NCBI GenBank assembly: GCA_030272155.1
Contig: CP126202.1
Span: 3,989,501-4,053,500 of the forward strand
Reading direction: 5' to 3'
Source: Tetradesmus obliquus
Lineage: Eukaryota > Chlorophyta > Chlorophyceae > Sphaeropleales > Scenedesmaceae
Length of the DNA stretch: 64,000 bases
The notes below the pieces were generated by a model. That model was not told where the DNA came from. It ran no database searches and saw nothing but the letters and a program-made list of their open reading frames with translations. Positions 1 through 58,364 of the stretch are shown piece after piece. The position numbers and the translations under genes were made by a program. Each line of letters opens with the position of its first letter. Position 1 is the first letter of the stretch.

Positions 1-16
1 AACATATGGATATGTT
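1..16. repeat. Near-palindrome upstream of the transposase start
   Basis: AACATATGGATATGTT is symmetric around a central GG. It recurs at each unit start, 9 bases upstream of the transposase ATG of the preceding unit. In units 3, 4, 5 and 7 one arm base is changed (A to G). It could be a promoter or protein-binding site, or simply a chance palindrome. Confidence 0.5.
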
Positions 17-58
17 AGCTGTGCTTCTAGCAGCAGTGTGAACAGAAGTAACTGGTCA

Positions 59-95
59 GGTCAAACAACAGCCTGCGGCATCATGGAGTTTGACC
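59..95. repeat. Short inverted repeat beside the footprint junction
   Basis: GGTCAAAC (59-66) and GTTTGACC (88-95) are perfect reverse complements around a 21-base spacer, ending two bases before GTCTC. Present in every unit, long or short, and in the partial unit; possibly a subterminal binding site. Confidence 0.45.
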
Positions 96-96
96 G

Positions 97-107
97 GTCT
101 CAGAGAC
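97..107. other. Putative excision footprint, CAG type (unit 1)
   Basis: GTCTC-A-GAGAC, where long units carry GTCT-[CAG...CTG]-AGAC. The three bases left match one end of the 721-bp element. The same sequence with central A recurs at 50711-50721. The T form is at 7939-7949, 15781-15791, 23623-23633, 31465-31475, 39307-39317 and 42869-42879. Confidence 0.6.
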
Positions 108-345
108 TGTAATTGCATGCCAGCCTTTGCTGCAGCAGTTCTTAGCCTGCACTGCATCCCTTCTGTTGCTGTTCCTGGACTTGGTGCCTGAAGTGCACAC
201 CTACCTTTTTATGCTATGGCTGATGTGCTCCTGCTGCTGCTGGGTATGCAGCTGATTTTACTGCGGCAGTAGCACTGTTTGCAATCTATGATATCTGCCT
301 GGGCAGGAGCAGCAGCAGCAGCAGACGACAGGAAACGTTACAGCT

Positions 346-801
346 ATGTGTGCTTTGAATCACGGTGGCATGTGCTTTTCAACTGCAGTTGTTGGTGGGC
401 GTGACAGCAGCAGCATGTGCCAGCAGGTGCCTCACTGCTGCTACCTAATTTTTTTGCGAAGGCTTTCAGTACAGCGCTGTGTTCAACGTCGTTTAATGTT
501 CATTCCAAATTGTTTACAGGTGCTGCAGCAACGCGATCGAGCTGCAGTGCTCTGGACATCCGTGTTGACCCGTCAGGCTCACCTGCAACGTGGGCTTGCG
601 AGGGCCCTTCAGGATTGGTTTTCTGCCTCAACCAAAGGTACGTTGCATAATGTGTCGACGATGATGATTTGGCAGCGTGGCAGCTGTGTGGCTCGGAGCA
701 GGCTTGTTTCAGGGCACCTTTCCGTCTTGAAGTTCTTCACCATACCGCAGTTTATTTCGGCTCGAGCCATGCTTAAATCAATCATCAAATATAAAAGTTA
801 A
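346..801 (+). CDS. Weak hypothetical ORF in the unit core (unit 1; repeated in every full unit)
   Basis: 151 codons from a true ATG, rich in Arg and Cys, not recognised. A convincing acceptor (TTGTTTACAG before about 540) and donor (AAAG|GTACGT, about 637) bracket a helical-looking stretch, LQRGLARALQDWF, inside it. Real coding sequence here, if any, may therefore be a single exon rather than the whole ORF. Copies sit at the same offset in the other 13 full units (4626, 8188, 12468, 16030, 20310, 23872, 28152, 31714, 35994, 39556, 43118, 47398, 50960). Selection cannot be judged because the copies do not differ. Confidence 0.25.
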   Translation: MCALNHGGMCFSTAVVGGRDSSSMCQQVPHCCYLIFLRRLSVQRCVQRRLMFIPNCLQVLQQRDRAAVLWTSVLTRQAHLQRGLARALQDWFSASTKGTLHNVSTMMIWQRGSCVARSRLVSGHLSVLKFFTIPQFISARAMLKSIIKYKS

Positions 802-1350
802 TTTACCGCAAGGTTTCTTGCAGGCTCCGTGCATAAAGCTTGGCAGGCCAACAGTCGTCACAACTCACGCGAGTGACAGCAGCAGGAGCCATGTTCAAGA
901 GCTACGAGCGTAGTTGAATTATGCCAGGAATTTTTCCGTTACATTCGGCAATTCAGCATGACTGCAAATGCCTGTATGTGAAATGGCCACCAAGTGCCTT
1001 GCTGCCTTGCAGCAGTTGTTTGAAGCAGGAACCACTCCTGACAAGTCTGAGCACCAAAGCACAACATCCACATGTATTTTACTCATACCATAAGCTTCTG
1101 AACATGCCATTTTGTTCCCACACTCGCTCTCAGGTGAACACCAGGAAGTAACCACCCTACAGCAGCATGGTGCCAGCACCTCCCAAGCCCCGGGCGGTGC
1201 GAACATGCAGGACGGCGACAAGCGCAGGTGCCCTCAAACAGGTGAGCTCAAGGGCTCTCTGAGTGACACCCTGTGCACTGCTGGCTAGCCATCTTGCATG
1301 CAGCTGACAGCCACAATCCCTACATGCCATGCAGCAGCACAACAGCAGAC
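802..1350. other. No recognised gene; probable 3' side of the transposase gene
   Basis: Between the weak ORF and the transposase stop I see only short overlapping frames on both strands. A few splice-like sites occur on the plus strand (TTTCTTGCAG near 828, CCT|GTATGT near 974). It may be the 3' untranslated part of the transposase transcript or remnants of a plus-strand gene. The same segment recurs in each unit. Confidence 0.4.
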
Positions 1351-3554
1351 TCAGCGCTGGTCTTTCCTGGGGTAGTCGCCAGCAGTGCCGCGGCGCTGCT
1401 TCCCGTCTCGGCACACACAAAGACTCCTCTTGCGGCTGCGCACCATGTTCCACAAATCTGGCAGCTTCAATACATCAGCCATGACAGATGCAGCTGTGAT
1501 CTTCATAAAGGTGTTGTACAGGCCGTGCTGCAGGTCTCGCGGCTTCACATCAGCACCACCCAGCTGGCAGCTGTTATACAAGTAGTTGCGGAAGGCTGCT
1601 TTGAGGCTGCCAAATGCATGTTCAATGGGCTTGTTGAAATCTGGGGAGTAGGGTGCAAAGTGCAGCAGTTGATCTTCATTGATGCCACCTGCAACCAACA
1701 TCTGTAGGCCATCCTTCCCCAGGTGAACACTTGGGTTGTCAAAGATGTACAGCGGCGTAGTGCCGCGCTGCGCCTGCTGTTGGTTGGCTATGTCTTTGAT
1801 CTCCATCATGCAGTGAACAAACTCCAGCTGAGTCATGCTCTTGGCCTGCTGGGTTGGTTTGTCCTTCAACTGCAGGTGCAAGAATTGCCGGATTGGCAGC
1901 GCGCAGCCTTGTTAGCAGCGCAGGAGCGCAACGCAGCGGTGTGGATGGATGCGATGGGACGCTTCTACATCAGGCTCAGTGCAGACAAGGTCAGATACAT
2001 CACCAAGTCTATGAGGGGGCAGAGATTGTTCTGGGGCTTGACTGGCTGCTTGCCAGGTGTGCAGCACTTCAAGTTCTGCGCGCCGCGTGCAGTCGCCACA
2101 GCAGCAGCGCTTCAGTGCAAGATGTGTGCATGTGTGCTGGCTGATATGGTTGGCACATGCATGGGCTACATGCACACAAGCGAGGAGCAGCTGGTGTGCA
2201 TGCTGTACTGGTTAGGCACCAGCAGCAGTATGTGTGCTCAGGTAGCAGTGGACTGGTGGGATGGGCGGATTGATTTCCTCCATGCACAGCACAACATGCT
2301 GATTCAAGCTGATGGCTCATGTCATGACAAGGGTTATTACAGCAGCAGCAGGCAGCTGGTGCTGGAGCGCGACTTTGAGTTCTGCGCTGCAGCATATGAC
2401 AACTGGCTGCAGCCAGGGGGCAGTGTGCTGCGCGTGAGCACGCGCGGATGTGACATGCACCAATCCTTGCACATTGGTTTCCAGCTTGCTGCTGCAGGTG
2501 GTGTCATTGTACTGTCACCAAGTTACTCTGCTGTTATGTTCACAGCAGAGGACGGGCAGCGCTGCAGCTTCACTACAGCACTAAAAAAAGCACTGCGGGA
2601 CTGTTACTACACAGTACAGCAGGGCTGGCATGTCTTTCAATGGCAGGCGCCTGCGCAGTAGCAGCGCACACTCACCATGTACGGTACATTGAGGTTGCCA
2701 ACATGGTCCTTGTTGTCTGTTGTGCCGGTGACAAACTTGCAGTAGACGGGCCCGTGCACAGCGTTGACGGCGCAGACAAAGTGCAACTTGACCGGCTCTG
2801 CGTCCTTGCCCTTGCGCATCCATTTGCATGGCAGCACAGCATGCACGTTTTCATCGTGTGCATCACAATAGACCTTGACGGAGCCGCCTGCCAGGTCTGA
2901 CATCCAGAATTTGCACTCATCAATGAAATATATGCGCTGCAGCATGTCGGGGTCACTTTGGTACTTCTGCCACAGCGCCGCAGCTGCTGCCTTTCGCCTT
3001 TGTTTCTGTATCTTTGTCAAGTCCAGCTTCACATCTATTCTCCTGCGCACCAGGTCGGGGTCAGCCCATTTCATGTACTTCAGCAGTCTCTTGGGTGTGA
3101 TGTTGTAGTCAGTGCACAGCTGGCGCAGTGTGTCATTTTCCTGACATGCGACTTCGATTGAAGTCCACCACACGTGCACATCAACCTTTCTCTTTGATTC
3201 TGCAGATGGGTAGGCCTTTACCACCTTGCCAGCCTTGAATATTGTGCTGGCATGGAAGGCGACAGCATGTGGGACATTTGAGGGCCTGCCGCCATGCTTG
3301 GGTGTAGCCACTGTGCCGTTTGCTGTGAAGTTCTTGTGATGAAGTTTGCAGAACCGGTTCAGGTCCCCGTGTACCTCCTTGGCGTAGTCAGGGTACTGCT
3401 CTCTGTAATAATATGCGGGCGTAAACTTTTCGTCAGCTGTGGTCAAAGCCATTATCACACACACCACCGCCGCCACCCTCATGGCCGTGGTGCTGCGGTT
3501 GCTCTTCCATCCTGAAGGGTGCTTGCGCACCATGGACAGCCCCCCTGCAGGCAT
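1351..3554 (-). CDS. DDE transposase, IS630/Tc1/mariner superfamily, two exons (unit 1)
   Basis: Predicted exons: 3554-2676 (293 codons) and 1869-1351 (172 codons plus stop), 465 aa in total. The donor after Met293 is GTGAGT; the acceptor is CACCTGCAG before 1869. Both are phase 0, and neither half alone holds a full catalytic core. The start is the first ATG after an in-frame stop about 60 nt upstream. Residues about 125-165 look like a helix-turn-helix, with a GGRP hinge at 88-91. Catalytic triad as read: D212 in YFIDECKFW, D337 in YIFDNPSVH, E376 in NKPIEHAFGSLK, so 38 residues separate the second Asp and Glu. This fits the DDE_3 fold, whose role is excision and reintegration of inverted-repeat elements in the nucleus. 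All key residues are present, so it may be active. The intron hosts an antisense nuclease ORF. Confidence 0.88.
1945..2661 (+). CDS. Putative PD-(D/E)XK nuclease (Vsr/DUF559/EDxHD-like) inside the transposase intron (unit 1)
   Basis: ATG to TAG, 238 aa, opposite strand to the transposase and wholly inside its intron (1870-2675). The frame stays open upstream to 1723, but that part overlaps transposase exon 2 and lacks an ATG. Motifs in order: possible zinc-ribbon cysteines C35, C45, C58, C61; TSEEQL with E80/E81; GRIDF with D110; LIQADGSCH with D123 and H127; LERDFEF with D143; VLRV at 161-164; and a hydrophobic strand, GGVIVLSPSYS. This order (Glu helix, D-F strand, DG-x2-H, R-D helix, VLR strand) is that of Vsr-like and DUF559 nuclease folds, and of EDxHD homing endonucleases. 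Function is inferred; no target is known. It could also be one exon of a longer gene. Confidence 0.68.
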   Translation: MDAMGRFYIRLSADKVRYITKSMRGQRLFWGLTGCLPGVQHFKFCAPRAVATAAALQCKMCACVLADMVGTCMGYMHTSEEQLVCMLYWLGTSSSMCAQVAVDWWDGRIDFLHAQHNMLIQADGSCHDKGYYSSSRQLVLERDFEFCAAAYDNWLQPGGSVLRVSTRGCDMHQSLHIGFQLAAAGGVIVLSPSYSAVMFTAEDGQRCSFTTALKKALRDCYYTVQQGWHVFQWQAPAQ

Positions 3555-3662
3555 GAATCCAAAACATATGGATATGTTAGCTGTGCTTCTAGCAGCAGTG
3601 TGAACAGAAGTAACTGGTCAGGTCAAACAACAGCCTGCGGCATCATGGAGTTTGACCGGTCT

Positions 3663-4383
3663 CAGCTGGGCATGGTACAAATGTAGCGAACAAGTGGCCT
3701 ACATATAAATGTCAAGCTTTCAACGACGAATCTAAATCAATTTGAGCTGTTAGCAGTGGCACAGTGTGCTGCAAGAAAAGTGCTAAAACACGTTGCCCTG
3801 AAGTGCCCCGACTCGGCTGTTACATATGTTAACTTGCGCTGTAGAGTGTTGCTGTGGGTGCTGCTGCCTGCAACATGTTTTGATGTGTAATGTAATTCTT
3901 CTGGGCTTCCCTTGCTGGCTGATCAGGCACTGCAGTTCTGGTGTGCCAAGTGCCCTGCCGCTGCTGTTGCGCTCTGCTGCTTGGCGCTGTGCGCTGCACA
4001 TACAGTTTCAACTGTCATATCTGTTACATAGTGCGCAACACCGCTTCAGGCCCACCGGCAGCTGCTGCGCGCGTGCAGCTAGTGTGGCTGCACAGAGTTT
4101 GTTGAGGACTAGTATTCTACACAGTTTCCTGCAAACATCCTTCTTGTGTGATCAAGGCGAATTCTGGAGCTCAAAATTACTAGCAGTTTGGAGCTGCTGC
4201 TGCTGGCAGGTGAGGCCCTGCTGTGCAGTTGGGATGCAAGCAAACCAAAGCAGCAGCACTGGCAGCTGTGCCTTACTGTGCCTGCCACATACAGCAGGTT
4301 GCTATGCCAGCATGGCTGTCTGCTTGCAAGCTGTGTTGATTTGTTGCAAAATGCAGATGCTGCGTTTGTACCATGCCCAGCTG
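3663..4383. mobile_element. 721-bp segment with perfect terminal inverted repeats (unit 2)
   Basis: It begins CAGCTGGGCATGGTACAAA and ends with the exact reverse complement. The symmetry extends into the flanking GTCT/AGAC, giving 23 matching bases (3659-3681 and 4365-4387), with partial match beyond. It encodes no recognised protein. There is a TATAAAT at 3704-3710 and an ATG-less open stretch of 67 codons (3687-3887, plus strand); a 188-codon Cys/Leu-rich frame (3826-4392) overlaps these. CAG-initial termini are common in Tc1/mariner elements, so this may be a non-autonomous (MITE-like) partner mobilised by the neighbouring transposase. No TA target duplication is seen, which is atypical for that superfamily. 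Confidence 0.75.
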
Positions 4384-5630
4384 AGACTGTAATTGCATGC
4401 CAGCCTTTGCTGCAGCAGTTCTTAGCCTGCACTGCATCCCTTCTGTTGCTGTTCCTGGACTTGGTGCCTGAAGTGCACACCTACCTTTTTATGCTATGGC
4501 TGATGTGCTCCTGCTGCTGCTGGGTATGCAGCTGATTTTACTGCGGCAGTAGCACTGTTTGCAATCTATGATATCTGCCTGGGCAGGAGCAGCAGCAGCA
4601 GCAGACGACAGGAAACGTTACAGCTATGTGTGCTTTGAATCACGGTGGCATGTGCTTTTCAACTGCAGTTGTTGGTGGGCGTGACAGCAGCAGCATGTGC
4701 CAGCAGGTGCCTCACTGCTGCTACCTAATTTTTTTGCGAAGGCTTTCAGTACAGCGCTGTGTTCAACGTCGTTTAATGTTCATTCCAAATTGTTTACAGG
4801 TGCTGCAGCAACGCGATCGAGCTGCAGTGCTCTGGACATCCGTGTTGACCCGTCAGGCTCACCTGCAACGTGGGCTTGCGAGGGCCCTTCAGGATTGGTT
4901 TTCTGCCTCAACCAAAGGTACGTTGCATAATGTGTCGACGATGATGATTTGGCAGCGTGGCAGCTGTGTGGCTCGGAGCAGGCTTGTTTCAGGGCACCTT
5001 TCCGTCTTGAAGTTCTTCACCATACCGCAGTTTATTTCGGCTCGAGCCATGCTTAAATCAATCATCAAATATAAAAGTTAATTTACCGCAAGGTTTCTTG
5101 CAGGCTCCGTGCATAAAGCTTGGCAGGCCAACAGTCGTCACAACTCACGCGAGTGACAGCAGCAGGAGCCATGTTCAAGAGCTACGAGCGTAGTTGAATT
5201 ATGCCAGGAATTTTTCCGTTACATTCGGCAATTCAGCATGACTGCAAATGCCTGTATGTGAAATGGCCACCAAGTGCCTTGCTGCCTTGCAGCAGTTGTT
5301 TGAAGCAGGAACCACTCCTGACAAGTCTGAGCACCAAAGCACAACATCCACATGTATTTTACTCATACCATAAGCTTCTGAACATGCCATTTTGTTCCCA
5401 CACTCGCTCTCAGGTGAACACCAGGAAGTAACCACCCTACAGCAGCATGGTGCCAGCACCTCCCAAGCCCCGGGCGGTGCGAACATGCAGGACGGCGACA
5501 AGCGCAGGTGCCCTCAAACAGGTGAGCTCAAGGGCTCTCTGAGTGACACCCTGTGCACTGCTGGCTAGCCATCTTGCATGCAGCTGACAGCCACAATCCC
5601 TACATGCCATGCAGCAGCACAACAGCAGAC

Positions 5631-7834
5631 TCAGCGCTGGTCTTTCCTGGGGTAGTCGCCAGCAGTGCCGCGGCGCTGCTTCCCGTCTCGGCACACACAA
5701 AGACTCCTCTTGCGGCTGCGCACCATGTTCCACAAATCTGGCAGCTTCAATACATCAGCCATGACAGATGCAGCTGTGATCTTCATAAAGGTGTTGTACA
5801 GGCCGTGCTGCAGGTCTCGCGGCTTCACATCAGCACCACCCAGCTGGCAGCTGTTATACAAGTAGTTGCGGAAGGCTGCTTTGAGGCTGCCAAATGCATG
5901 TTCAATGGGCTTGTTGAAATCTGGGGAGTAGGGTGCAAAGTGCAGCAGTTGATCTTCATTGATGCCACCTGCAACCAACATCTGTAGGCCATCCTTCCCC
6001 AGGTGAACACTTGGGTTGTCAAAGATGTACAGCGGCGTAGTGCCGCGCTGCGCCTGCTGTTGGTTGGCTATGTCTTTGATCTCCATCATGCAGTGAACAA
6101 ACTCCAGCTGAGTCATGCTCTTGGCCTGCTGGGTTGGTTTGTCCTTCAACTGCAGGTGCAAGAATTGCCGGATTGGCAGCGCGCAGCCTTGTTAGCAGCG
6201 CAGGAGCGCAACGCAGCGGTGTGGATGGATGCGATGGGACGCTTCTACATCAGGCTCAGTGCAGACAAGGTCAGATACATCACCAAGTCTATGAGGGGGC
6301 AGAGATTGTTCTGGGGCTTGACTGGCTGCTTGCCAGGTGTGCAGCACTTCAAGTTCTGCGCGCCGCGTGCAGTCGCCACAGCAGCAGCGCTTCAGTGCAA
6401 GATGTGTGCATGTGTGCTGGCTGATATGGTTGGCACATGCATGGGCTACATGCACACAAGCGAGGAGCAGCTGGTGTGCATGCTGTACTGGTTAGGCACC
6501 AGCAGCAGTATGTGTGCTCAGGTAGCAGTGGACTGGTGGGATGGGCGGATTGATTTCCTCCATGCACAGCACAACATGCTGATTCAAGCTGATGGCTCAT
6601 GTCATGACAAGGGTTATTACAGCAGCAGCAGGCAGCTGGTGCTGGAGCGCGACTTTGAGTTCTGCGCTGCAGCATATGACAACTGGCTGCAGCCAGGGGG
6701 CAGTGTGCTGCGCGTGAGCACGCGCGGATGTGACATGCACCAATCCTTGCACATTGGTTTCCAGCTTGCTGCTGCAGGTGGTGTCATTGTACTGTCACCA
6801 AGTTACTCTGCTGTTATGTTCACAGCAGAGGACGGGCAGCGCTGCAGCTTCACTACAGCACTAAAAAAAGCACTGCGGGACTGTTACTACACAGTACAGC
6901 AGGGCTGGCATGTCTTTCAATGGCAGGCGCCTGCGCAGTAGCAGCGCACACTCACCATGTACGGTACATTGAGGTTGCCAACATGGTCCTTGTTGTCTGT
7001 TGTGCCGGTGACAAACTTGCAGTAGACGGGCCCGTGCACAGCGTTGACGGCGCAGACAAAGTGCAACTTGACCGGCTCTGCGTCCTTGCCCTTGCGCATC
7101 CATTTGCATGGCAGCACAGCATGCACGTTTTCATCGTGTGCATCACAATAGACCTTGACGGAGCCGCCTGCCAGGTCTGACATCCAGAATTTGCACTCAT
7201 CAATGAAATATATGCGCTGCAGCATGTCGGGGTCACTTTGGTACTTCTGCCACAGCGCCGCAGCTGCTGCCTTTCGCCTTTGTTTCTGTATCTTTGTCAA
7301 GTCCAGCTTCACATCTATTCTCCTGCGCACCAGGTCGGGGTCAGCCCATTTCATGTACTTCAGCAGTCTCTTGGGTGTGATGTTGTAGTCAGTGCACAGC
7401 TGGCGCAGTGTGTCATTTTCCTGACATGCGACTTCGATTGAAGTCCACCACACGTGCACATCAACCTTTCTCTTTGATTCTGCAGATGGGTAGGCCTTTA
7501 CCACCTTGCCAGCCTTGAATATTGTGCTGGCATGGAAGGCGACAGCATGTGGGACATTTGAGGGCCTGCCGCCATGCTTGGGTGTAGCCACTGTGCCGTT
7601 TGCTGTGAAGTTCTTGTGATGAAGTTTGCAGAACCGGTTCAGGTCCCCGTGTACCTCCTTGGCGTAGTCAGGGTACTGCTCTCTGTAATAATATGCGGGC
7701 GTAAACTTTTCGTCAGCTGTGGTCAAAGCCATTATCACACACACCACCGCCGCCACCCTCATGGCCGTGGTGCTGCGGTTGCTCTTCCATCCTGAAGGGT
7801 GCTTGCGCACCATGGACAGCCCCCCTGCAGGCAT
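5631..7834 (-). CDS. Transposase, unit 2
   Basis: Exons 7834-6956 and 6149-5631; protein identical to the unit 1 copy. In this long unit the 721-bp segment lies at the 3' side of the gene, 1.25 kb past the stop. Confidence 0.87.
6225..6941 (+). CDS. Putative intron-nested nuclease, unit 2
   Basis: Identical to the unit 1 ORF, inside intron 6150-6955; E, D, H, D residues all retained. Confidence 0.66.
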   Translation: MDAMGRFYIRLSADKVRYITKSMRGQRLFWGLTGCLPGVQHFKFCAPRAVATAAALQCKMCACVLADMVGTCMGYMHTSEEQLVCMLYWLGTSSSMCAQVAVDWWDGRIDFLHAQHNMLIQADGSCHDKGYYSSSRQLVLERDFEFCAAAYDNWLQPGGSVLRVSTRGCDMHQSLHIGFQLAAAGGVIVLSPSYSAVMFTAEDGQRCSFTTALKKALRDCYYTVQQGWHVFQWQAPAQ

Positions 7835-9192
7835 GAATCCAAAACGTATGGATATGTTAGCTGTGCTTCTAGCAGCAGTGTGAACAGAAGTAACTGGTCA
7901 GGTCAAACAACAGCCTGCGGCATCATGGAGTTTGACCGGTCTCTGAGACTGTGATTGCATGCCAGCCTTTGCTGCAGCAGTTCTTAGCCTGCACTGCATC
8001 CCTTCTGTTGCTGTTCCTGGACTTGGTGCCTGAAGTGCACACCTACCTTTTTATGCTATGGCTGATGTGCTCCTGCTGCTGCTGGGTATGCAGCTGATTT
8101 TACTGCGGCAGTAGCACTGTTTGCAATCTATGATATCTGCCTGGGCAGGAGCAGCAGCAGCAGCAGACGACAGGAAACGTTACAGCTATGTGTGCTTTGA
8201 ATCACGGTGGCATGTGCTTTTCAACTGCAGTTGTTGGTGGGCGTGACAGCAGCAGCATGTGCCAGCAGGTGCCTCACTGCTGCTACCTAATTTTTTTGCG
8301 AAGGCTTTCAGTACAGCGCTGTGTTCAACGTCGTTTAATGTTCATTCCAAATTGTTTACAGGTGCTGCAGCAACGCGATCGAGCTGCAGTGCTCTGGACA
8401 TCCGTGTTGACCCGTCAGGCTCACCTGCAACGTGGGCTTGCGAGGGCCCTTCAGGATTGGTTTTCTGCCTCAACCAAAGGTACGTTGCATAATGTGTCGA
8501 CGATGATGATTTGGCAGCGTGGCAGCTGTGTGGCTCGGAGCAGGCTTGTTTCAGGGCACCTTTCCGTCTTGAAGTTCTTCACCATACCGCAGTTTATTTC
8601 GGCTCGAGCCATGCTTAAATCAATCATCAAATATAAAAGTTAATTTACCGCAAGGTTTCTTGCAGGCTCCGTGCATAAAGCTTGGCAGGCCAACAGTCGT
8701 CACAACTCACGCGAGTGACAGCAGCAGGAGCCATGTTCAAGAGCTACGAGCGTAGTTGAATTATGCCAGGAATTTTTCCGTTACATTCGGCAATTCAGCA
8801 TGACTGCAAATGCCTGTATGTGAAATGGCCACCAAGTGCCTTGCTGCCTTGCAGCAGTTGTTTGAAGCAGGAACCACTCCTGACAAGTCTGAGCACCAAA
8901 GCACAACATCCACATGTATTTTACTCATACCATAAGCTTCTGAACATGCCATTTTGTTCCCACACTCGCTCTCAGGTGAACACCAGGAAGTAACCACCCT
9001 ACAGCAGCATGGTGCCAGCACCTCCCAAGCCCCGGGCGGTGCGAACATGCAGGACGGCGACAAGCGCAGGTGCCCTCAAACAGGTGAGCTCAAGGGCTCT
9101 CTGAGTGACACCCTGTGCACTGCTGGCTAGCCATCTTGCATGCAGCTGACAGCCACAATCCCTACATGCCATGCAGCAGCACAACAGCAGAC

Positions 9193-11396
9193 TCAGCGCT
9201 GGTCTTTCCTGGGGTAGTCGCCAGCAGTGCCGCGGCGCTGCTTCCCGTCTCGGCACACACAAAGACTCCTCTTGCGGCTGCGCACCATGTTCCACAAATC
9301 TGGCAGCTTCAATACATCAGCCATGACAGATGCAGCTGTGATCTTCATAAAGGTGTTGTACAGGCCGTGCTGCAGGTCTCGCGGCTTCACATCAGCACCA
9401 CCCAGCTGGCAGCTGTTATACAAGTAGTTGCGGAAGGCTGCTTTGAGGCTGCCAAATGCATGTTCAATGGGCTTGTTGAAATCTGGGGAGTAGGGTGCAA
9501 AGTGCAGCAGTTGATCTTCATTGATGCCACCTGCAACCAACATCTGTAGGCCATCCTTCCCCAGGTGAACACTTGGGTTGTCAAAGATGTACAGCGGCGT
9601 AGTGCCGCGCTGCGCCTGCTGTTGGTTGGCTATGTCTTTGATCTCCATCATGCAGTGAACAAACTCCAGCTGAGTCATGCTCTTGGCCTGCTGGGTTGGT
9701 TTGTCCTTCAACTGCAGGTGCAAGAATTGCCGGATTGGCAGCGCGCAGCCTTGTTAGCAGCGCAGGAGCGCAACGCAGCGGTGTGGATGGATGCGATGGG
9801 ACGCTTCTACATCAGGCTCAGTGCAGACAAGGTCAGATACATCACCAAGTCTATGAGGGGGCAGAGATTGTTCTGGGGCTTGACTGGCTGCTTGCCAGGT
9901 GTGCAGCACTTCAAGTTCTGCGCGCCGCGTGCAGTCGCCACAGCAGCAGCGCTTCAGTGCAAGATGTGTGCATGTGTGCTGGCTGATATGGTTGGCACAT
10001 GCATGGGCTACATGCACACAAGCGAGGAGCAGCTGGTGTGCATGCTGTACTGGTTAGGCACCAGCAGCAGTATGTGTGCTCAGGTAGCAGTGGACTGGTG
10101 GGATGGGCGGATTGATTTCCTCCATGCACAGCACAACATGCTGATTCAAGCTGATGGCTCATGTCATGACAAGGGTTATTACAGCAGCAGCAGGCAGCTG
10201 GTGCTGGAGCGCGACTTTGAGTTCTGCGCTGCAGCATATGACAACTGGCTGCAGCCAGGGGGCAGTGTGCTGCGCGTGAGCACGCGCGGATGTGACATGC
10301 ACCAATCCTTGCACATTGGTTTCCAGCTTGCTGCTGCAGGTGGTGTCATTGTACTGTCACCAAGTTACTCTGCTGTTATGTTCACAGCAGAGGACGGGCA
10401 GCGCTGCAGCTTCACTACAGCACTAAAAAAAGCACTGCGGGACTGTTACTACACAGTACAGCAGGGCTGGCATGTCTTTCAATGGCAGGCGCCTGCGCAG
10501 TAGCAGCGCACACTCACCATGTACGGTACATTGAGGTTGCCAACATGGTCCTTGTTGTCTGTTGTGCCGGTGACAAACTTGCAGTAGACGGGCCCGTGCA
10601 CAGCGTTGACGGCGCAGACAAAGTGCAACTTGACCGGCTCTGCGTCCTTGCCCTTGCGCATCCATTTGCATGGCAGCACAGCATGCACGTTTTCATCGTG
10701 TGCATCACAATAGACCTTGACGGAGCCGCCTGCCAGGTCTGACATCCAGAATTTGCACTCATCAATGAAATATATGCGCTGCAGCATGTCGGGGTCACTT
10801 TGGTACTTCTGCCACAGCGCCGCAGCTGCTGCCTTTCGCCTTTGTTTCTGTATCTTTGTCAAGTCCAGCTTCACATCTATTCTCCTGCGCACCAGGTCGG
10901 GGTCAGCCCATTTCATGTACTTCAGCAGTCTCTTGGGTGTGATGTTGTAGTCAGTGCACAGCTGGCGCAGTGTGTCATTTTCCTGACATGCGACTTCGAT
11001 TGAAGTCCACCACACGTGCACATCAACCTTTCTCTTTGATTCTGCAGATGGGTAGGCCTTTACCACCTTGCCAGCCTTGAATATTGTGCTGGCATGGAAG
11101 GCGACAGCATGTGGGACATTTGAGGGCCTGCCGCCATGCTTGGGTGTAGCCACTGTGCCGTTTGCTGTGAAGTTCTTGTGATGAAGTTTGCAGAACCGGT
11201 TCAGGTCCCCGTGTACCTCCTTGGCGTAGTCAGGGTACTGCTCTCTGTAATAATATGCGGGCGTAAACTTTTCGTCAGCTGTGGTCAAAGCCATTATCAC
11301 ACACACCACCGCCGCCACCCTCATGGCCGTGGTGCTGCGGTTGCTCTTCCATCCTGAAGGGTGCTTGCGCACCATGGACAGCCCCCCTGCAGGCAT
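9193..11396 (-). CDS. Transposase, unit 3
   Basis: Exons 11396-10518 and 9711-9193; identical protein, no frame damage. Confidence 0.87.
9787..10503 (+). CDS. Putative intron-nested nuclease, unit 3
   Basis: Intact 238-codon copy inside intron 9712-10517. Confidence 0.66.
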   Translation: MDAMGRFYIRLSADKVRYITKSMRGQRLFWGLTGCLPGVQHFKFCAPRAVATAAALQCKMCACVLADMVGTCMGYMHTSEEQLVCMLYWLGTSSSMCAQVAVDWWDGRIDFLHAQHNMLIQADGSCHDKGYYSSSRQLVLERDFEFCAAAYDNWLQPGGSVLRVSTRGCDMHQSLHIGFQLAAAGGVIVLSPSYSAVMFTAEDGQRCSFTTALKKALRDCYYTVQQGWHVFQWQAPAQ

Positions 11397-11504
11397 GAAT
11401 CCAAAACGTATGGATATGTTAGCTGTGCTTCTAGCAGCAGTGTGAACAGAAGTAACTGGTCAGGTCAAACAACAGCCTGCGGCATCATGGAGTTTGACCG
11501 GTCT

Positions 11505-12225
11505 CAGCTGGGCATGGTACAAATGTAGCGAACAAGTGGCCTACATATAAATGTCAAGCTTTCAACGACGAATCTAAATCAATTTGAGCTGTTAGCAGTG
11601 GCACAGTGTGCTGCAAGAAAAGTGCTAAAACACGTTGCCCTGAAGTGCCCCGACTCGGCTGTTACATATGTTAACTTGCGCTGTAGAGTGTTGCTGTGGG
11701 TGCTGCTGCCTGCAACATGTTTTGATGTGTAATGTAATTCTTCTGGGCTTCCCTTGCTGGCTGATCAGGCACTGCAGTTCTGGTGTGCCAAGTGCCCTGC
11801 CGCTGCTGTTGCGCTCTGCTGCTTGGCGCTGTGCGCTGCACATACAGTTTCAACTGTCATATCTGTTACATAGTGCGCAACACCGCTTCAGGCCCACCGG
11901 CAGCTGCTGCGCGCGTGCAGCTAGTGTGGCTGCACAGAGTTTGTTGAGGACTAGTATTCTACACAGTTTCCTGCAAACATCCTTCTTGTGTGATCAAGGC
12001 GAATTCTGGAGCTCAAAATTACTAGCAGTTTGGAGCTGCTGCTGCTGGCAGGTGAGGCCCTGCTGTGCAGTTGGGATGCAAGCAAACCAAAGCAGCAGCA
12101 CTGGCAGCTGTGCCTTACTGTGCCTGCCACATACAGCAGGTTGCTATGCCAGCATGGCTGTCTGCTTGCAAGCTGTGTTGATTTGTTGCAAAATGCAGAT
12201 GCTGCGTTTGTACCATGCCCAGCTG
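11505..12225. mobile_element. 721-bp inverted-repeat segment (unit 4)
   Basis: Same boundaries and flanks (GTCT/AGAC) as the copy in unit 2. Confidence 0.75.
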
Positions 12226-13472
12226 AGACTGTAATTGCATGCCAGCCTTTGCTGCAGCAGTTCTTAGCCTGCACTGCATCCCTTCTGTTGCTGTTCCTGG
12301 ACTTGGTGCCTGAAGTGCACACCTACCTTTTTATGCTATGGCTGATGTGCTCCTGCTGCTGCTGGGTATGCAGCTGATTTTACTGCGGCAGTAGCACTGT
12401 TTGCAATCTATGATATCTGCCTGGGCAGGAGCAGCAGCAGCAGCAGACGACAGGAAACGTTACAGCTATGTGTGCTTTGAATCACGGTGGCATGTGCTTT
12501 TCAACTGCAGTTGTTGGTGGGCGTGACAGCAGCAGCATGTGCCAGCAGGTGCCTCACTGCTGCTACCTAATTTTTTTGCGAAGGCTTTCAGTACAGCGCT
12601 GTGTTCAACGTCGTTTAATGTTCATTCCAAATTGTTTACAGGTGCTGCAGCAACGCGATCGAGCTGCAGTGCTCTGGACATCCGTGTTGACCCGTCAGGC
12701 TCACCTGCAACGTGGGCTTGCGAGGGCCCTTCAGGATTGGTTTTCTGCCTCAACCAAAGGTACGTTGCATAATGTGTCGACGATGATGATTTGGCAGCGT
12801 GGCAGCTGTGTGGCTCGGAGCAGGCTTGTTTCAGGGCACCTTTCCGTCTTGAAGTTCTTCACCATACCGCAGTTTATTTCGGCTCGAGCCATGCTTAAAT
12901 CAATCATCAAATATAAAAGTTAATTTACCGCAAGGTTTCTTGCAGGCTCCGTGCATAAAGCTTGGCAGGCCAACAGTCGTCACAACTCACGCGAGTGACA
13001 GCAGCAGGAGCCATGTTCAAGAGCTACGAGCGTAGTTGAATTATGCCAGGAATTTTTCCGTTACATTCGGCAATTCAGCATGACTGCAAATGCCTGTATG
13101 TGAAATGGCCACCAAGTGCCTTGCTGCCTTGCAGCAGTTGTTTGAAGCAGGAACCACTCCTGACAAGTCTGAGCACCAAAGCACAACATCCACATGTATT
13201 TTACTCATACCATAAGCTTCTGAACATGCCATTTTGTTCCCACACTCGCTCTCAGGTGAACACCAGGAAGTAACCACCCTACAGCAGCATGGTGCCAGCA
13301 CCTCCCAAGCCCCGGGCGGTGCGAACATGCAGGACGGCGACAAGCGCAGGTGCCCTCAAACAGGTGAGCTCAAGGGCTCTCTGAGTGACACCCTGTGCAC
13401 TGCTGGCTAGCCATCTTGCATGCAGCTGACAGCCACAATCCCTACATGCCATGCAGCAGCACAACAGCAGAC

Positions 13473-15676
13473 TCAGCGCTGGTCTTTCCTGGGGTAGTCG
13501 CCAGCAGTGCCGCGGCGCTGCTTCCCGTCTCGGCACACACAAAGACTCCTCTTGCGGCTGCGCACCATGTTCCACAAATCTGGCAGCTTCAATACATCAG
13601 CCATGACAGATGCAGCTGTGATCTTCATAAAGGTGTTGTACAGGCCGTGCTGCAGGTCTCGCGGCTTCACATCAGCACCACCCAGCTGGCAGCTGTTATA
13701 CAAGTAGTTGCGGAAGGCTGCTTTGAGGCTGCCAAATGCATGTTCAATGGGCTTGTTGAAATCTGGGGAGTAGGGTGCAAAGTGCAGCAGTTGATCTTCA
13801 TTGATGCCACCTGCAACCAACATCTGTAGGCCATCCTTCCCCAGGTGAACACTTGGGTTGTCAAAGATGTACAGCGGCGTAGTGCCGCGCTGCGCCTGCT
13901 GTTGGTTGGCTATGTCTTTGATCTCCATCATGCAGTGAACAAACTCCAGCTGAGTCATGCTCTTGGCCTGCTGGGTTGGTTTGTCCTTCAACTGCAGGTG
14001 CAAGAATTGCCGGATTGGCAGCGCGCAGCCTTGTTAGCAGCGCAGGAGCGCAACGCAGCGGTGTGGATGGATGCGATGGGACGCTTCTACATCAGGCTCA
14101 GTGCAGACAAGGTCAGATACATCACCAAGTCTATGAGGGGGCAGAGATTGTTCTGGGGCTTGACTGGCTGCTTGCCAGGTGTGCAGCACTTCAAGTTCTG
14201 CGCGCCGCGTGCAGTCGCCACAGCAGCAGCGCTTCAGTGCAAGATGTGTGCATGTGTGCTGGCTGATATGGTTGGCACATGCATGGGCTACATGCACACA
14301 AGCGAGGAGCAGCTGGTGTGCATGCTGTACTGGTTAGGCACCAGCAGCAGTATGTGTGCTCAGGTAGCAGTGGACTGGTGGGATGGGCGGATTGATTTCC
14401 TCCATGCACAGCACAACATGCTGATTCAAGCTGATGGCTCATGTCATGACAAGGGTTATTACAGCAGCAGCAGGCAGCTGGTGCTGGAGCGCGACTTTGA
14501 GTTCTGCGCTGCAGCATATGACAACTGGCTGCAGCCAGGGGGCAGTGTGCTGCGCGTGAGCACGCGCGGATGTGACATGCACCAATCCTTGCACATTGGT
14601 TTCCAGCTTGCTGCTGCAGGTGGTGTCATTGTACTGTCACCAAGTTACTCTGCTGTTATGTTCACAGCAGAGGACGGGCAGCGCTGCAGCTTCACTACAG
14701 CACTAAAAAAAGCACTGCGGGACTGTTACTACACAGTACAGCAGGGCTGGCATGTCTTTCAATGGCAGGCGCCTGCGCAGTAGCAGCGCACACTCACCAT
14801 GTACGGTACATTGAGGTTGCCAACATGGTCCTTGTTGTCTGTTGTGCCGGTGACAAACTTGCAGTAGACGGGCCCGTGCACAGCGTTGACGGCGCAGACA
14901 AAGTGCAACTTGACCGGCTCTGCGTCCTTGCCCTTGCGCATCCATTTGCATGGCAGCACAGCATGCACGTTTTCATCGTGTGCATCACAATAGACCTTGA
15001 CGGAGCCGCCTGCCAGGTCTGACATCCAGAATTTGCACTCATCAATGAAATATATGCGCTGCAGCATGTCGGGGTCACTTTGGTACTTCTGCCACAGCGC
15101 CGCAGCTGCTGCCTTTCGCCTTTGTTTCTGTATCTTTGTCAAGTCCAGCTTCACATCTATTCTCCTGCGCACCAGGTCGGGGTCAGCCCATTTCATGTAC
15201 TTCAGCAGTCTCTTGGGTGTGATGTTGTAGTCAGTGCACAGCTGGCGCAGTGTGTCATTTTCCTGACATGCGACTTCGATTGAAGTCCACCACACGTGCA
15301 CATCAACCTTTCTCTTTGATTCTGCAGATGGGTAGGCCTTTACCACCTTGCCAGCCTTGAATATTGTGCTGGCATGGAAGGCGACAGCATGTGGGACATT
15401 TGAGGGCCTGCCGCCATGCTTGGGTGTAGCCACTGTGCCGTTTGCTGTGAAGTTCTTGTGATGAAGTTTGCAGAACCGGTTCAGGTCCCCGTGTACCTCC
15501 TTGGCGTAGTCAGGGTACTGCTCTCTGTAATAATATGCGGGCGTAAACTTTTCGTCAGCTGTGGTCAAAGCCATTATCACACACACCACCGCCGCCACCC
15601 TCATGGCCGTGGTGCTGCGGTTGCTCTTCCATCCTGAAGGGTGCTTGCGCACCATGGACAGCCCCCCTGCAGGCAT
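13473..15676 (-). CDS. Transposase, unit 4
   Basis: Exons 15676-14798 and 13991-13473; identical protein. Confidence 0.87.
14067..14783 (+). CDS. Putative intron-nested nuclease, unit 4
   Basis: Intact copy inside intron 13992-14797. Confidence 0.66.
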   Translation: MDAMGRFYIRLSADKVRYITKSMRGQRLFWGLTGCLPGVQHFKFCAPRAVATAAALQCKMCACVLADMVGTCMGYMHTSEEQLVCMLYWLGTSSSMCAQVAVDWWDGRIDFLHAQHNMLIQADGSCHDKGYYSSSRQLVLERDFEFCAAAYDNWLQPGGSVLRVSTRGCDMHQSLHIGFQLAAAGGVIVLSPSYSAVMFTAEDGQRCSFTTALKKALRDCYYTVQQGWHVFQWQAPAQ

Positions 15677-17034
15677 GAATCCAAAACGTATGGATATGTT
15701 AGCTGTGCTTCTAGCAGCAGTGTGAACAGAAGTAACTGGTCAGGTCAAACAACAGCCTGCGGCATCATGGAGTTTGACCGGTCTCTGAGACTGTGATTGC
15801 ATGCCAGCCTTTGCTGCAGCAGTTCTTAGCCTGCACTGCATCCCTTCTGTTGCTGTTCCTGGACTTGGTGCCTGAAGTGCACACCTACCTTTTTATGCTA
15901 TGGCTGATGTGCTCCTGCTGCTGCTGGGTATGCAGCTGATTTTACTGCGGCAGTAGCACTGTTTGCAATCTATGATATCTGCCTGGGCAGGAGCAGCAGC
16001 AGCAGCAGACGACAGGAAACGTTACAGCTATGTGTGCTTTGAATCACGGTGGCATGTGCTTTTCAACTGCAGTTGTTGGTGGGCGTGACAGCAGCAGCAT
16101 GTGCCAGCAGGTGCCTCACTGCTGCTACCTAATTTTTTTGCGAAGGCTTTCAGTACAGCGCTGTGTTCAACGTCGTTTAATGTTCATTCCAAATTGTTTA
16201 CAGGTGCTGCAGCAACGCGATCGAGCTGCAGTGCTCTGGACATCCGTGTTGACCCGTCAGGCTCACCTGCAACGTGGGCTTGCGAGGGCCCTTCAGGATT
16301 GGTTTTCTGCCTCAACCAAAGGTACGTTGCATAATGTGTCGACGATGATGATTTGGCAGCGTGGCAGCTGTGTGGCTCGGAGCAGGCTTGTTTCAGGGCA
16401 CCTTTCCGTCTTGAAGTTCTTCACCATACCGCAGTTTATTTCGGCTCGAGCCATGCTTAAATCAATCATCAAATATAAAAGTTAATTTACCGCAAGGTTT
16501 CTTGCAGGCTCCGTGCATAAAGCTTGGCAGGCCAACAGTCGTCACAACTCACGCGAGTGACAGCAGCAGGAGCCATGTTCAAGAGCTACGAGCGTAGTTG
16601 AATTATGCCAGGAATTTTTCCGTTACATTCGGCAATTCAGCATGACTGCAAATGCCTGTATGTGAAATGGCCACCAAGTGCCTTGCTGCCTTGCAGCAGT
16701 TGTTTGAAGCAGGAACCACTCCTGACAAGTCTGAGCACCAAAGCACAACATCCACATGTATTTTACTCATACCATAAGCTTCTGAACATGCCATTTTGTT
16801 CCCACACTCGCTCTCAGGTGAACACCAGGAAGTAACCACCCTACAGCAGCATGGTGCCAGCACCTCCCAAGCCCCGGGCGGTGCGAACATGCAGGACGGC
16901 GACAAGCGCAGGTGCCCTCAAACAGGTGAGCTCAAGGGCTCTCTGAGTGACACCCTGTGCACTGCTGGCTAGCCATCTTGCATGCAGCTGACAGCCACAA
17001 TCCCTACATGCCATGCAGCAGCACAACAGCAGAC

Positions 17035-19238
17035 TCAGCGCTGGTCTTTCCTGGGGTAGTCGCCAGCAGTGCCGCGGCGCTGCTTCCCGTCTCGGCACAC
17101 ACAAAGACTCCTCTTGCGGCTGCGCACCATGTTCCACAAATCTGGCAGCTTCAATACATCAGCCATGACAGATGCAGCTGTGATCTTCATAAAGGTGTTG
17201 TACAGGCCGTGCTGCAGGTCTCGCGGCTTCACATCAGCACCACCCAGCTGGCAGCTGTTATACAAGTAGTTGCGGAAGGCTGCTTTGAGGCTGCCAAATG
17301 CATGTTCAATGGGCTTGTTGAAATCTGGGGAGTAGGGTGCAAAGTGCAGCAGTTGATCTTCATTGATGCCACCTGCAACCAACATCTGTAGGCCATCCTT
17401 CCCCAGGTGAACACTTGGGTTGTCAAAGATGTACAGCGGCGTAGTGCCGCGCTGCGCCTGCTGTTGGTTGGCTATGTCTTTGATCTCCATCATGCAGTGA
17501 ACAAACTCCAGCTGAGTCATGCTCTTGGCCTGCTGGGTTGGTTTGTCCTTCAACTGCAGGTGCAAGAATTGCCGGATTGGCAGCGCGCAGCCTTGTTAGC
17601 AGCGCAGGAGCGCAACGCAGCGGTGTGGATGGATGCGATGGGACGCTTCTACATCAGGCTCAGTGCAGACAAGGTCAGATACATCACCAAGTCTATGAGG
17701 GGGCAGAGATTGTTCTGGGGCTTGACTGGCTGCTTGCCAGGTGTGCAGCACTTCAAGTTCTGCGCGCCGCGTGCAGTCGCCACAGCAGCAGCGCTTCAGT
17801 GCAAGATGTGTGCATGTGTGCTGGCTGATATGGTTGGCACATGCATGGGCTACATGCACACAAGCGAGGAGCAGCTGGTGTGCATGCTGTACTGGTTAGG
17901 CACCAGCAGCAGTATGTGTGCTCAGGTAGCAGTGGACTGGTGGGATGGGCGGATTGATTTCCTCCATGCACAGCACAACATGCTGATTCAAGCTGATGGC
18001 TCATGTCATGACAAGGGTTATTACAGCAGCAGCAGGCAGCTGGTGCTGGAGCGCGACTTTGAGTTCTGCGCTGCAGCATATGACAACTGGCTGCAGCCAG
18101 GGGGCAGTGTGCTGCGCGTGAGCACGCGCGGATGTGACATGCACCAATCCTTGCACATTGGTTTCCAGCTTGCTGCTGCAGGTGGTGTCATTGTACTGTC
18201 ACCAAGTTACTCTGCTGTTATGTTCACAGCAGAGGACGGGCAGCGCTGCAGCTTCACTACAGCACTAAAAAAAGCACTGCGGGACTGTTACTACACAGTA
18301 CAGCAGGGCTGGCATGTCTTTCAATGGCAGGCGCCTGCGCAGTAGCAGCGCACACTCACCATGTACGGTACATTGAGGTTGCCAACATGGTCCTTGTTGT
18401 CTGTTGTGCCGGTGACAAACTTGCAGTAGACGGGCCCGTGCACAGCGTTGACGGCGCAGACAAAGTGCAACTTGACCGGCTCTGCGTCCTTGCCCTTGCG
18501 CATCCATTTGCATGGCAGCACAGCATGCACGTTTTCATCGTGTGCATCACAATAGACCTTGACGGAGCCGCCTGCCAGGTCTGACATCCAGAATTTGCAC
18601 TCATCAATGAAATATATGCGCTGCAGCATGTCGGGGTCACTTTGGTACTTCTGCCACAGCGCCGCAGCTGCTGCCTTTCGCCTTTGTTTCTGTATCTTTG
18701 TCAAGTCCAGCTTCACATCTATTCTCCTGCGCACCAGGTCGGGGTCAGCCCATTTCATGTACTTCAGCAGTCTCTTGGGTGTGATGTTGTAGTCAGTGCA
18801 CAGCTGGCGCAGTGTGTCATTTTCCTGACATGCGACTTCGATTGAAGTCCACCACACGTGCACATCAACCTTTCTCTTTGATTCTGCAGATGGGTAGGCC
18901 TTTACCACCTTGCCAGCCTTGAATATTGTGCTGGCATGGAAGGCGACAGCATGTGGGACATTTGAGGGCCTGCCGCCATGCTTGGGTGTAGCCACTGTGC
19001 CGTTTGCTGTGAAGTTCTTGTGATGAAGTTTGCAGAACCGGTTCAGGTCCCCGTGTACCTCCTTGGCGTAGTCAGGGTACTGCTCTCTGTAATAATATGC
19101 GGGCGTAAACTTTTCGTCAGCTGTGGTCAAAGCCATTATCACACACACCACCGCCGCCACCCTCATGGCCGTGGTGCTGCGGTTGCTCTTCCATCCTGAA
19201 GGGTGCTTGCGCACCATGGACAGCCCCCCTGCAGGCAT
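17035..19238 (-). CDS. Transposase, unit 5
   Basis: Exons 19238-18360 and 17553-17035; identical protein. Confidence 0.87.
17629..18345 (+). CDS. Putative intron-nested nuclease, unit 5
   Basis: Intact copy inside intron 17554-18359. Confidence 0.66.
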   Translation: MDAMGRFYIRLSADKVRYITKSMRGQRLFWGLTGCLPGVQHFKFCAPRAVATAAALQCKMCACVLADMVGTCMGYMHTSEEQLVCMLYWLGTSSSMCAQVAVDWWDGRIDFLHAQHNMLIQADGSCHDKGYYSSSRQLVLERDFEFCAAAYDNWLQPGGSVLRVSTRGCDMHQSLHIGFQLAAAGGVIVLSPSYSAVMFTAEDGQRCSFTTALKKALRDCYYTVQQGWHVFQWQAPAQ

Positions 19239-19346
19239 GAATCCAAAACATATGGATATGTTAGCTGTGCTTCTAGCAGCAGTGTGAACAGAAGTAACTG
19301 GTCAGGTCAAACAACAGCCTGCGGCATCATGGAGTTTGACCGGTCT

Positions 19347-20067
19347 CAGCTGGGCATGGTACAAATGTAGCGAACAAGTGGCCTACATATAAATGTCAAG
19401 CTTTCAACGACGAATCTAAATCAATTTGAGCTGTTAGCAGTGGCACAGTGTGCTGCAAGAAAAGTGCTAAAACACGTTGCCCTGAAGTGCCCCGACTCGG
19501 CTGTTACATATGTTAACTTGCGCTGTAGAGTGTTGCTGTGGGTGCTGCTGCCTGCAACATGTTTTGATGTGTAATGTAATTCTTCTGGGCTTCCCTTGCT
19601 GGCTGATCAGGCACTGCAGTTCTGGTGTGCCAAGTGCCCTGCCGCTGCTGTTGCGCTCTGCTGCTTGGCGCTGTGCGCTGCACATACAGTTTCAACTGTC
19701 ATATCTGTTACATAGTGCGCAACACCGCTTCAGGCCAACCGGCAGCTGCTGCGCGCGTGCAGCTAGTGTGGCTGCACAGAGTTTGTTGAGGACTAGTATT
19801 CTACACAGTTTCCTGCAAACATCCTTCTTGTGTGATCAAGGCGAATTCTGGAGCTCAAAATTACTAGCAGTTTGGAGCTGCTGCTGCTGGCAGGTGAGGC
19901 CCTGCTGTGCAGTTGGGATGCAAGCAAACCAAAGCAGCAGCACTGGCAGCTGTGCCTTACTGTGCCTGCCACATACAGCAGGTTGCTATGCCAGCATGGC
20001 TGTCTGCTTGCAAGCTGTGTTGATTTGTTGCAAAATGCAGATGCTGCGTTTGTACCATGCCCAGCTG
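19347..20067. mobile_element. 721-bp inverted-repeat segment (unit 6)
   Basis: Same boundaries; carries the private C-to-A change near 19737. Confidence 0.75.
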
Positions 20068-21314
20068 AGACTGTAATTGCATGCCAGCCTTTGCTGCAGC
20101 AGTTCTTAGCCTGCACTGCATCCCTTCTGTTGCTGTTCCTGGACTTGGTGCCTGAAGTGCACACCTACCTTTTTATGCTATGGCTGATGTGCTCCTGCTG
20201 CTGCTGGGTATGCAGCTGATTTTACTGCGGCAGTAGCACTGTTTGCAATCTATGATATCTGCCTGGGCAGGAGCAGCAGCAGCAGCAGACGACAGGAAAC
20301 GTTACAGCTATGTGTGCTTTGAATCACGGTGGCATGTGCTTTTCAACTGCAGTTGTTGGTGGGCGTGACAGCAGCAGCATGTGCCAGCAGGTGCCTCACT
20401 GCTGCTACCTAATTTTTTTGCGAAGGCTTTCAGTACAGCGCTGTGTTCAACGTCGTTTAATGTTCATTCCAAATTGTTTACAGGTGCTGCAGCAACGCGA
20501 TCGAGCTGCAGTGCTCTGGACATCCGTGTTGACCCGTCAGGCTCACCTGCAACGTGGGCTTGCGAGGGCCCTTCAGGATTGGTTTTCTGCCTCAACCAAA
20601 GGTACGTTGCATAATGTGTCGACGATGATGATTTGGCAGCGTGGCAGCTGTGTGGCTCGGAGCAGGCTTGTTTCAGGGCACCTTTCCGTCTTGAAGTTCT
20701 TCACCATACCGCAGTTTATTTCGGCTCGAGCCATGCTTAAATCAATCATCAAATATAAAAGTTAATTTACCGCAAGGTTTCTTGCAGGCTCCGTGCATAA
20801 AGCTTGGCAGGCCAACAGTCGTCACAACTCACGCGAGTGACAGCAGCAGGAGCCATGTTCAAGAGCTACGAGCGTAGTTGAATTATGCCAGGAATTTTTC
20901 CGTTACATTCGGCAATTCAGCATGACTGCAAATGCCTGTATGTGAAATGGCCACCAAGTGCCTTGCTGCCTTGCAGCAGTTGTTTGAAGCAGGAACCACT
21001 CCTGACAAGTCTGAGCACCAAAGCACAACATCCACATGTATTTTACTCATACCATAAGCTTCTGAACATGCCATTTTGTTCCCACACTCGCTCTCAGGTG
21101 AACACCAGGAAGTAACCACCCTACAGCAGCATGGTGCCAGCACCTCCCAAGCCCCGGGCGGTGCGAACATGCAGGACGGCGACAAGCGCAGGTGCCCTCA
21201 AACAGGTGAGCTCAAGGGCTCTCTGAGTGACACCCTGTGCACTGCTGGCTAGCCATCTTGCATGCAGCTGACAGCCACAATCCCTACATGCCATGCAGCA
21301 GCACAACAGCAGAC

Positions 21315-27080: not shown

Positions 27081-27188
27081 GAATCCAAAACATATGGATA
27101 TGTTAGCTGTGCTTCTAGCAGCAGTGTGAACAGAAGTAACTGGTCAGGTCAAACAACAGCCTGCGGCATCATGGAGTTTGACCGGTCT

Positions 27189-34922: not shown

Positions 34923-35030
34923 GAATCCAAAACATATGGATATGTTAGCTGTGCTTCTAGCAGCAGTGTGAACAGAAGTAACTGGTCAGGTCAAACAACA
35001 GCCTGCGGCATCATGGAGTTTGACCGGTCT

Positions 35031-46326: not shown

Positions 46327-46434
46327 GAATCCAAAACATATGGATATGTTAGCTGTGCTTCTAGCAGCAGTGTGAACAGAAGTAACTGGTCAGGTCAAAC
46401 AACAGCCTGCGGCATCATGGAGTTTGACCGGTCT

Positions 46435-54168: not shown

Positions 54169-54176
54169 GAATCCAA

Positions 54177-58068: not shown

Positions 58069-58106
<38 letters not shown>

Positions 58107-58323: not shown

Positions 58324-58364
<41 letters not shown>

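Follow-up and report, generated by a model that had tools for sequence, protein, structure and literature searches.

A candidate composite DNA transposon in Tetradesmus obliquus with predicted interlocked genes for a DDE transposase and a DUF559/Vsr-like nuclease

The window analysed here, a stretch of 64,000 nucleotides from the Tetradesmus obliquus genome (G000:C12:3989501-4053500; 104.7 Mb in 17 contigs), contains a tandem array whose units carry a nuclease-like frame on one strand and a transposase gene on the other. In our reading, for which we consider the chances to be about even, the array is a multimer of a composite DNA transposon of the form (LTDR-INT)n-LTDR, in which internal regions (INT) and terminal direct repeats (LTDR) follow one another, with two interlocked spliced genes and the mechanism proposed below. 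This model is favoured because a related family, B, has the same layout at 74% DNA identity, because both frames have been conserved in the long term, because LTDR pairs are identical, because CAG and CTG flank the elements, and because profile comparison relates the nuclease to DUF559. In addition, it is favoured by the presence of four structures like those of the animal element KolobokP, namely monomers, arrays, INT-INT junctions and probable solo LTDRs.

Two genes on opposite strands of one unit

The features of the first unit and of the array are as follows, in window positions:

1..54994, no strand: part of the tandem array, 14 units in the window; it closes on the right with an LTDR, after which comes CTGCGGCCCTC
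104..3665, no strand: INT of the first unit, from sequence comparison of units
1167..1241, plus strand: predicted nuclease exon 1, 75 nt, MVPAPPKPRAVRTCRTATSAGALKQ, phase 0, donor GTGAGC, from comparison with family B
1242..1875, plus strand: predicted nuclease intron, from sequence, holding transposase exon 2 on the opposite strand
1351..1869, minus strand: transposase exon 2, 172 codons and stop, with the presumed second D and the E (FDN...PIE), from a DDE_3 match
1870..1875, no strand: CTGCAG palindrome, predicted from sequence as 3' splice site for both genes
1870..2675, minus strand: transposase intron, GTGAGT...CTGCAG, from sequence, holding nuclease exon 2 on the opposite strand
1876..2661, plus strand: nuclease exon 2, 261 codons and stop, with a DUF559/Vsr-like core, from homology and profile comparison
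2182..2436, plus strand: putative active-site stretch, E104, D134, Q145-x-D147, H151, D167 and VLRV, from conservation and DUF559 alignment
2676..3554, minus strand: transposase exon 1, 293 codons, with the presumed first catalytic D (FIDEC), from sequence
3666..4380, no strand: LTDR, here 715 bp long and bearing inverted ends of its own, CTGGGCATGGTACAAA...TTTGTACCATGCCCAG

The initial annotation had predicted the transposase intron with phase 0 on both sides, which the reading of 2675-1870 on the minus strand bears out, and had placed within it an opposite-strand frame whose stop lies 14 bases from the transposase donor, which was confirmed. That frame had been taken for a complete ORF of 238 codons; it is indeed open, but represents only part of exon 2 of a gene that would have two exons and, once joined, a product of 286 amino acids. 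In fact, the proposed start, 75 bases inside the intron, had to be abandoned, as similarity to the homologues reaches past that ATG on its 5' side, up to roughly the GTG at 1876, and a predicted exon 1, which begins with ATG, lies at 1167-1241 and would join in phase 0 to 1876, after CTGCAG, in both families. The joined transposase exons encode 465 amino acids.

Family B, represented by L054 (G000:C4:126400-129900), aligns with the window family over 1131-3657 at 74% DNA identity (blastn) and keeps the interlocked layout, with an exon 1 of exactly 75 nt, of the same phase and donor type. The match opens 36 nt 5' of the exon 1 ATG, and L054 shows no similarity to the unit in the 625 bases beyond that point; an in-frame TAA precedes exon 1 in the window family as well as in L054. 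Over the aligned codons the nuclease frame has no stop in either family, against 2 to 14 stops in each of the five remaining frames. From the exon positions in both families it follows that each predicted intron contains the second exon of the other gene, and we infer from this arrangement that both genes are spliced, with the palindrome CTGCAG acting as the 3' splice site on both strands. The nuclease gene would thus not lie wholly in the transposase intron, since its exon 1, which ends 109 nt past the transposase stop codon, is located beyond transposase exon 2. Upstream of the nuclease, on the plus strand, window 519-657 is an exon-like stretch (TTTACAG before, GGTACG after), which may be a leader exon or due to chance.

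Classes of the two proteins and selection on their frames

By its sequence, the minus-strand gene appears to encode an IS630/Tc1/mariner-like DDE transposase. DDE_3 is its sole Pfam match, at 24.4 bits for the window copy (below the cut-off of 28.6) and 28.9 bits for family B (above it), and the protein carries the blocks DN..H and PYSPDFN.PIE, which we take to be ITm hallmarks. The element differs from ITm in having composite ends, CAG/CTG flanks (13 of 13 monomers) rather than a TA target, and a second gene. Reading by eye, the signature C/DxxH between FDN and PIE was absent from both of the two spliced transposases. Sixteen transposase homologues were obtained, nine at 57-99% identity and seven at 29-41%, and in 15 of them, by our own reading (P0041 being ambiguous), similarity to the first exon stops at the same place and is followed by a V codon, as a GT donor would give. 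The intron position thus seems to have been kept in transposases down to 29% identity. Moreover, the tail of P0035 resembles the antisense peptide of the window over the nuclease C-terminus, a hint that its family is nested likewise. No relative with an empty intron was seen, the DNA of one other family (L054) having been read.

Twenty homologues of the nuclease share 44-94% identity across the aligned rows, and six of them carry the source name very-short-patch-repair endonuclease. Some of the metagenome nucleases cannot count as independent of the genome studied here: P0007 shares 97-99% identity with its families C and B, and P0002 shares 94% with the window family. Single-protein Pfam scans found DUF559 in 14 of the 20 (best E 0.0018); the window protein, P0001, reached 11.7 bits, below the cut-off of 20.6, and a DUF559 scan of the genome gave nothing above that cut-off, with a best value of 14.1 bits. 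None of the seven Pfam families listed for the 20 nuclease members is of the His-Me type. When an alignment of 51 bacterial DUF559 sequences (relatives of YcjD) was compared with 21 rows of the nuclease family, a score of 37.6 was obtained (P 3e-5, probability 72%), while 100 column shuffles gave at most 21.2, none of them reaching 37.6, the reversed alignment 10.4 and the transposase 11.9; in the opposite direction the score was 33.9 (P 1e-4, probability 57%). The residues aligned to DUF559 are the E in SE(E/Q)QL, the D in VDF, Q-A-D-G and the H in SCHD, so that the order E, D, (E/Q)-x-D-G, H is shared with the DUF559/Vsr protein YcjD of E. coli. Nevertheless, YcjD has 117 amino acids against 286 here, about 170 fewer, and the present gene would be spliced and lies within a transposon.

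With residues numbered on P0001, which starts at 1873, conservation was assessed in 26 homologues, two of which are fragments that do not extend to the active-site part. In the remaining 24, D134 and Q145 are invariant, H151 and D167 each occur in 23 and D147 in 22, and E104 is present in 21 of the 23 covering it. Within the genome, D167 is replaced by N in family B (L054) and D134 by N in two of 15 monomers (L039, L041), the frames being otherwise open, and D152 by Y in two monomers (L046, L047). Structure searches with two weak AlphaFold models (mean pLDDT 57 and 67) did not list a PD-(D/E)XK fold. The assignment to a Vsr/DUF559-type nuclease made by the initial annotation is therefore likely on the grounds of profile comparison and conserved motifs; the profile search it had called for did recover the DUF559 relation, while the structure searches, with these weak models, returned no such fold.

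Between the window family and family B, dN/dS is 0.52 for nuclease exon 2, where differences fall on 72 of 176 synonymous and 153 of 604 nonsynonymous sites (Fisher p 1e-4), and 0.62 for exon 1 (25 codons); the transposase exons gave 0.33 and 0.36, and the other frames of the nuclease stretch 0.66 to 1.07. When 15 recent copies were compared, 6 synonymous and 36 nonsynonymous variants were counted for the nuclease, a ratio with no significant departure from neutrality (p 0.27); for the transposase the counts were 25 and 31, which differs from the nuclease (p 0.002, or 0.09 without the two most diverged copies). Variants per site in these copies amount to 0.05 for the nuclease, 0.04 for the transposase exons and 0.16 for the non-coding stretch 103-1130, although the low nuclease variation cannot be attributed to protein constraint, because its synonymous variants are also few. 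The dN/dS check suggested at the outset had, then, two outcomes: the nuclease frame is under purifying selection between families (0.52), and it is not among recent copies.

An in-frame nuclease stop occurs in 14 of 146 scored copies of the window family, eleven of them on C17 (G000:C17:931051-1034878), where the eleven scored copies have one TGA in the nuclease frame; in L053, the single C17 copy read, the stop is at codon 255 of exon 2. Furthermore, the nuclease is frameshifted near its end by the loss of one base from an A run (unit position 2587), both in one unit of an array on C16 (G000:C16:260481-278121) and in a copy on C5 (C5:3651600-3653200) (L137, L138), the rest of the stretch read being nearly unchanged in both; the C16 locus has five transposase matches at 4279-bp spacing, and part of one unit was read. 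The 103 scored copies of families B and C are all free of in-frame stops; of two additional relatives located on C6, one carries such a stop. Copies with a degraded frame beside a conserved transposase, which the initial annotation had held to speak against its reading, do therefore exist, in the form of late stops or of a single frameshift. Constraint between families together with broken copies implies that the frame is kept in the long term and is not required intact in each copy, and arrays with a frameshifted or late-truncated nuclease imply that no intact copy is required in cis.

Anatomy of the element and its copies in the genome

The anatomy was established from 15 fetched regions around seemingly isolated copies, 13 of which are complete monomers. 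In this element, an internal region of 3557-3566 bp is enclosed by two copies of a direct repeat (about 717 bp, range 706-718), each with inverted ends of its own. The two LTDRs are identical in nine of the 13 complete monomers, and between elements the median is 13 mismatches (78 pairs); L046 is an outlier, its two repeats differing by 18 mismatches and 12 gap positions. In all 13 monomers the left flank is CAG and the right flank CTG, and CAGCTG also borders every LTDR within the element. In L049 (G000:C5:6494800-6504700), both LTDRs are inverted with respect to the internal region, with a difference of a single base between the two, which suggests that both were copied from one repeat. Among the first 100 of 179 places with the LTDR end pattern, four had no nearby INT match among the matches listed (G000 C1:9134755, C12:401295, C12:4565850 and C14:2161461), and these are probably solo LTDRs.

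In the window, the nuclease frame occurs 14 times, at a spacing of 4280 or 3562 bp. The short unit results from an INT-INT junction, as at 103/104, which lacks the direct repeat and one CTG (3 bp). The initial annotation had counted 14 intact copies; they are all present, but as units of a single tandem array, the 4280-bp unit being 99.9-100% identical over its full length among the window copies, and they are not independent witnesses. Across the genome, a 35-mer from the nuclease is matched at 163 places when at most 3 mismatches are allowed. Two related families, B with 43 copies and C with 60 (rows counted among 145 scored matches), also have long and short units, with spacings of 4310/3590 bp and 4307/3587 bp, respectively. 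Units of mixed orientation are found in arrays at G000:C3:7158670-7213668 and C13:1053204-1265740, and the flank of the window array has minisatellite-like repeats at 55847-56169 and 57819-58466, with units of 10 bp and about 260 bp.

Among known arrangements, that of IS26 is bacterial and has its transposase inside the repeat, whereas here the transposase belongs to the internal region. The IS26 translocatable units resemble the present element in that a unit is framed by direct repeats whose ends are inverted, and possibly in a one-repeat circle, as far as the excerpted text of PMC9587614 describes them.

Proposed working and comparison with other systems

The closest likeness found is to KolobokP, as portrayed in the excerpted text of Kojima and Bao (2022, PMC9587614), where INT lies between two long terminal direct repeats with their own short inverted repeats, where (LTDR-INT)n-LTDR multimers and solo LTDRs occur, where INT-INT junctions lose 3-4 bp (here one CTG is missing), and where a DDE transposase on one strand is accompanied by a homing-type nuclease on the complementary strand. 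Nevertheless, the KolobokP transposase is a Kolobok one with the signature C/DxxH, and the one here is DDE_3-like and lacks it; its nuclease is a His-Me finger protein encoded downstream of the transposase, and here it is DUF559/Vsr-like and intron-interlocked; and KolobokP is given there as having no strong target preference, in contrast to CAG/CTG in 13 of 13 monomers (PMC9587614). As the Kolobok signature is absent and the nuclease belongs to another class, the element is not a member of KolobokP, although by analogy it may work like it. Other DNA transposons associated with nucleases are KolobokE, with a PD-(D/E)XK nuclease (PMC9587614), and ISL2EU, whose second ORF encodes a nuclease domain (YqaJ exonuclease), but which has a PHIS-group transposase and an AT target duplication, long direct-repeat ends not being described in the excerpt of PMC4482050. 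No description of an element like the present one, apart from KolobokP, appeared in the titles and abstract openings among the matches listed for the open-licence PubMed Central literature.

The working that we infer, from splicing and target use to cleavage activity, cut site and amplification, would be as follows. The transposase would move LTDR-INT-LTDR, and lone LTDRs, into CAGCTG sites, while the nuclease would cut the element's own DNA, probably within or at the ends of an LTDR, and repair from an adjacent LTDR would add an LTDR-INT unit through unequal crossover or a one-LTDR circle. Cutting that leads to unequal crossover and thereby to amplification is the likeliest role of the nuclease, by analogy with KolobokP, whose multimers are attributed to nuclease-induced unequal crossover in what is its authors' own proposal (PMC9587614); of the functions that the initial annotation had considered, cutting for copy-number amplification is the one that this analogy favours. 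However, altered catalytic-type residues, broken frames and the lack of selection in recent copies speak against nuclease activity, and arrays can also be obtained by unequal crossover without a nuclease.

The nuclease gene could instead be an inactive remnant, or matter only as an antisense transcript restraining the transposase. The absence of purifying selection on the nuclease among the 15 recent copies, the in-frame stops in 14 of 146 copies of the window family, the frameshifted unit within an array, and the replacement by N of D167 in family B and of D134 in two of the 15 monomers are consistent with a remnant, and the layout predicts overlapping antisense transcripts. Nevertheless, we find this rather doubtful in view of the interfamily dN/dS of 0.52 (p 1e-4), the conservation of D134, Q145, H151, D147 and D167 in 22 to 24 of the 24 covering homologues, and the frames free of in-frame stops in 103 of 103 scored copies of families B and C, even if one of the two C6 relatives has one.

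An active nuclease could also serve transposition itself, by recognising or opening the CAGCTG target or the LTDR ends and so setting the strict target, with no part in array amplification. The CAG and CTG at either side of all 13 monomers and the CAGCTG bordering each internal LTDR agree with such a role, as do the reports, in the portions available, that KolobokP lacks a strong target preference (PMC9587614) and that ITm elements use TA, TAA or TAAA (PMC7386202); yet the transposase alone could fix the CAGCTG target, and we regard this role as unlikely. Very improbable is an intron-encoded homing endonuclease mobilising the transposase intron, even though the excerpted review PMC5718144 lists Vsr (EDxHD) among homing endonuclease types and nuclease exon 2 does sit in that intron. 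With exon 1 placed 109 nt past the transposase stop, a move of the intron would leave the nuclease gene incomplete, transposases down to 29% identity seem to retain the intron position, and no intronless relative emerged among the protein hits to which the search was confined. The mobile intron put forward in the initial annotation therefore finds no support here, as the predicted nuclease exon 1 falls outside the transposase intron.

A wider reading, which we advance tentatively, is that two unrelated DNA-transposon lineages have independently evolved a nuclease-armed composite design. In the present case, a Vsr-type nuclease whose gene interlocks with that of the transposase via the common palindromic splice site would cut the repeats of its own element (perhaps at CAGCTG), and long satellite-like arrays would grow out of single insertions. 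KolobokP was proposed to be a unique lineage, with multimers that may derive from its nuclease, and is reported only from animal phyla in the excerpted text (PMC9587614). Another instance, in which transposase and nuclease are both of other kinds, would show the design to have evolved more than once, and would let the idea of induced unequal crossover be tested by comparison. If true, the Vsr/EDxHD type would join the homing-type nucleases of eukaryotic transposons, which comprised at least GIY-YIG and PD-(D/E)XK in the available portion of a 2017 review (PMC5718144), and to which KolobokP brought the His-Me type in 2022 (PMC9587614). Moreover, interlocked antisense genes that would share one palindromic 3' splice site raise the question of how both are expressed.
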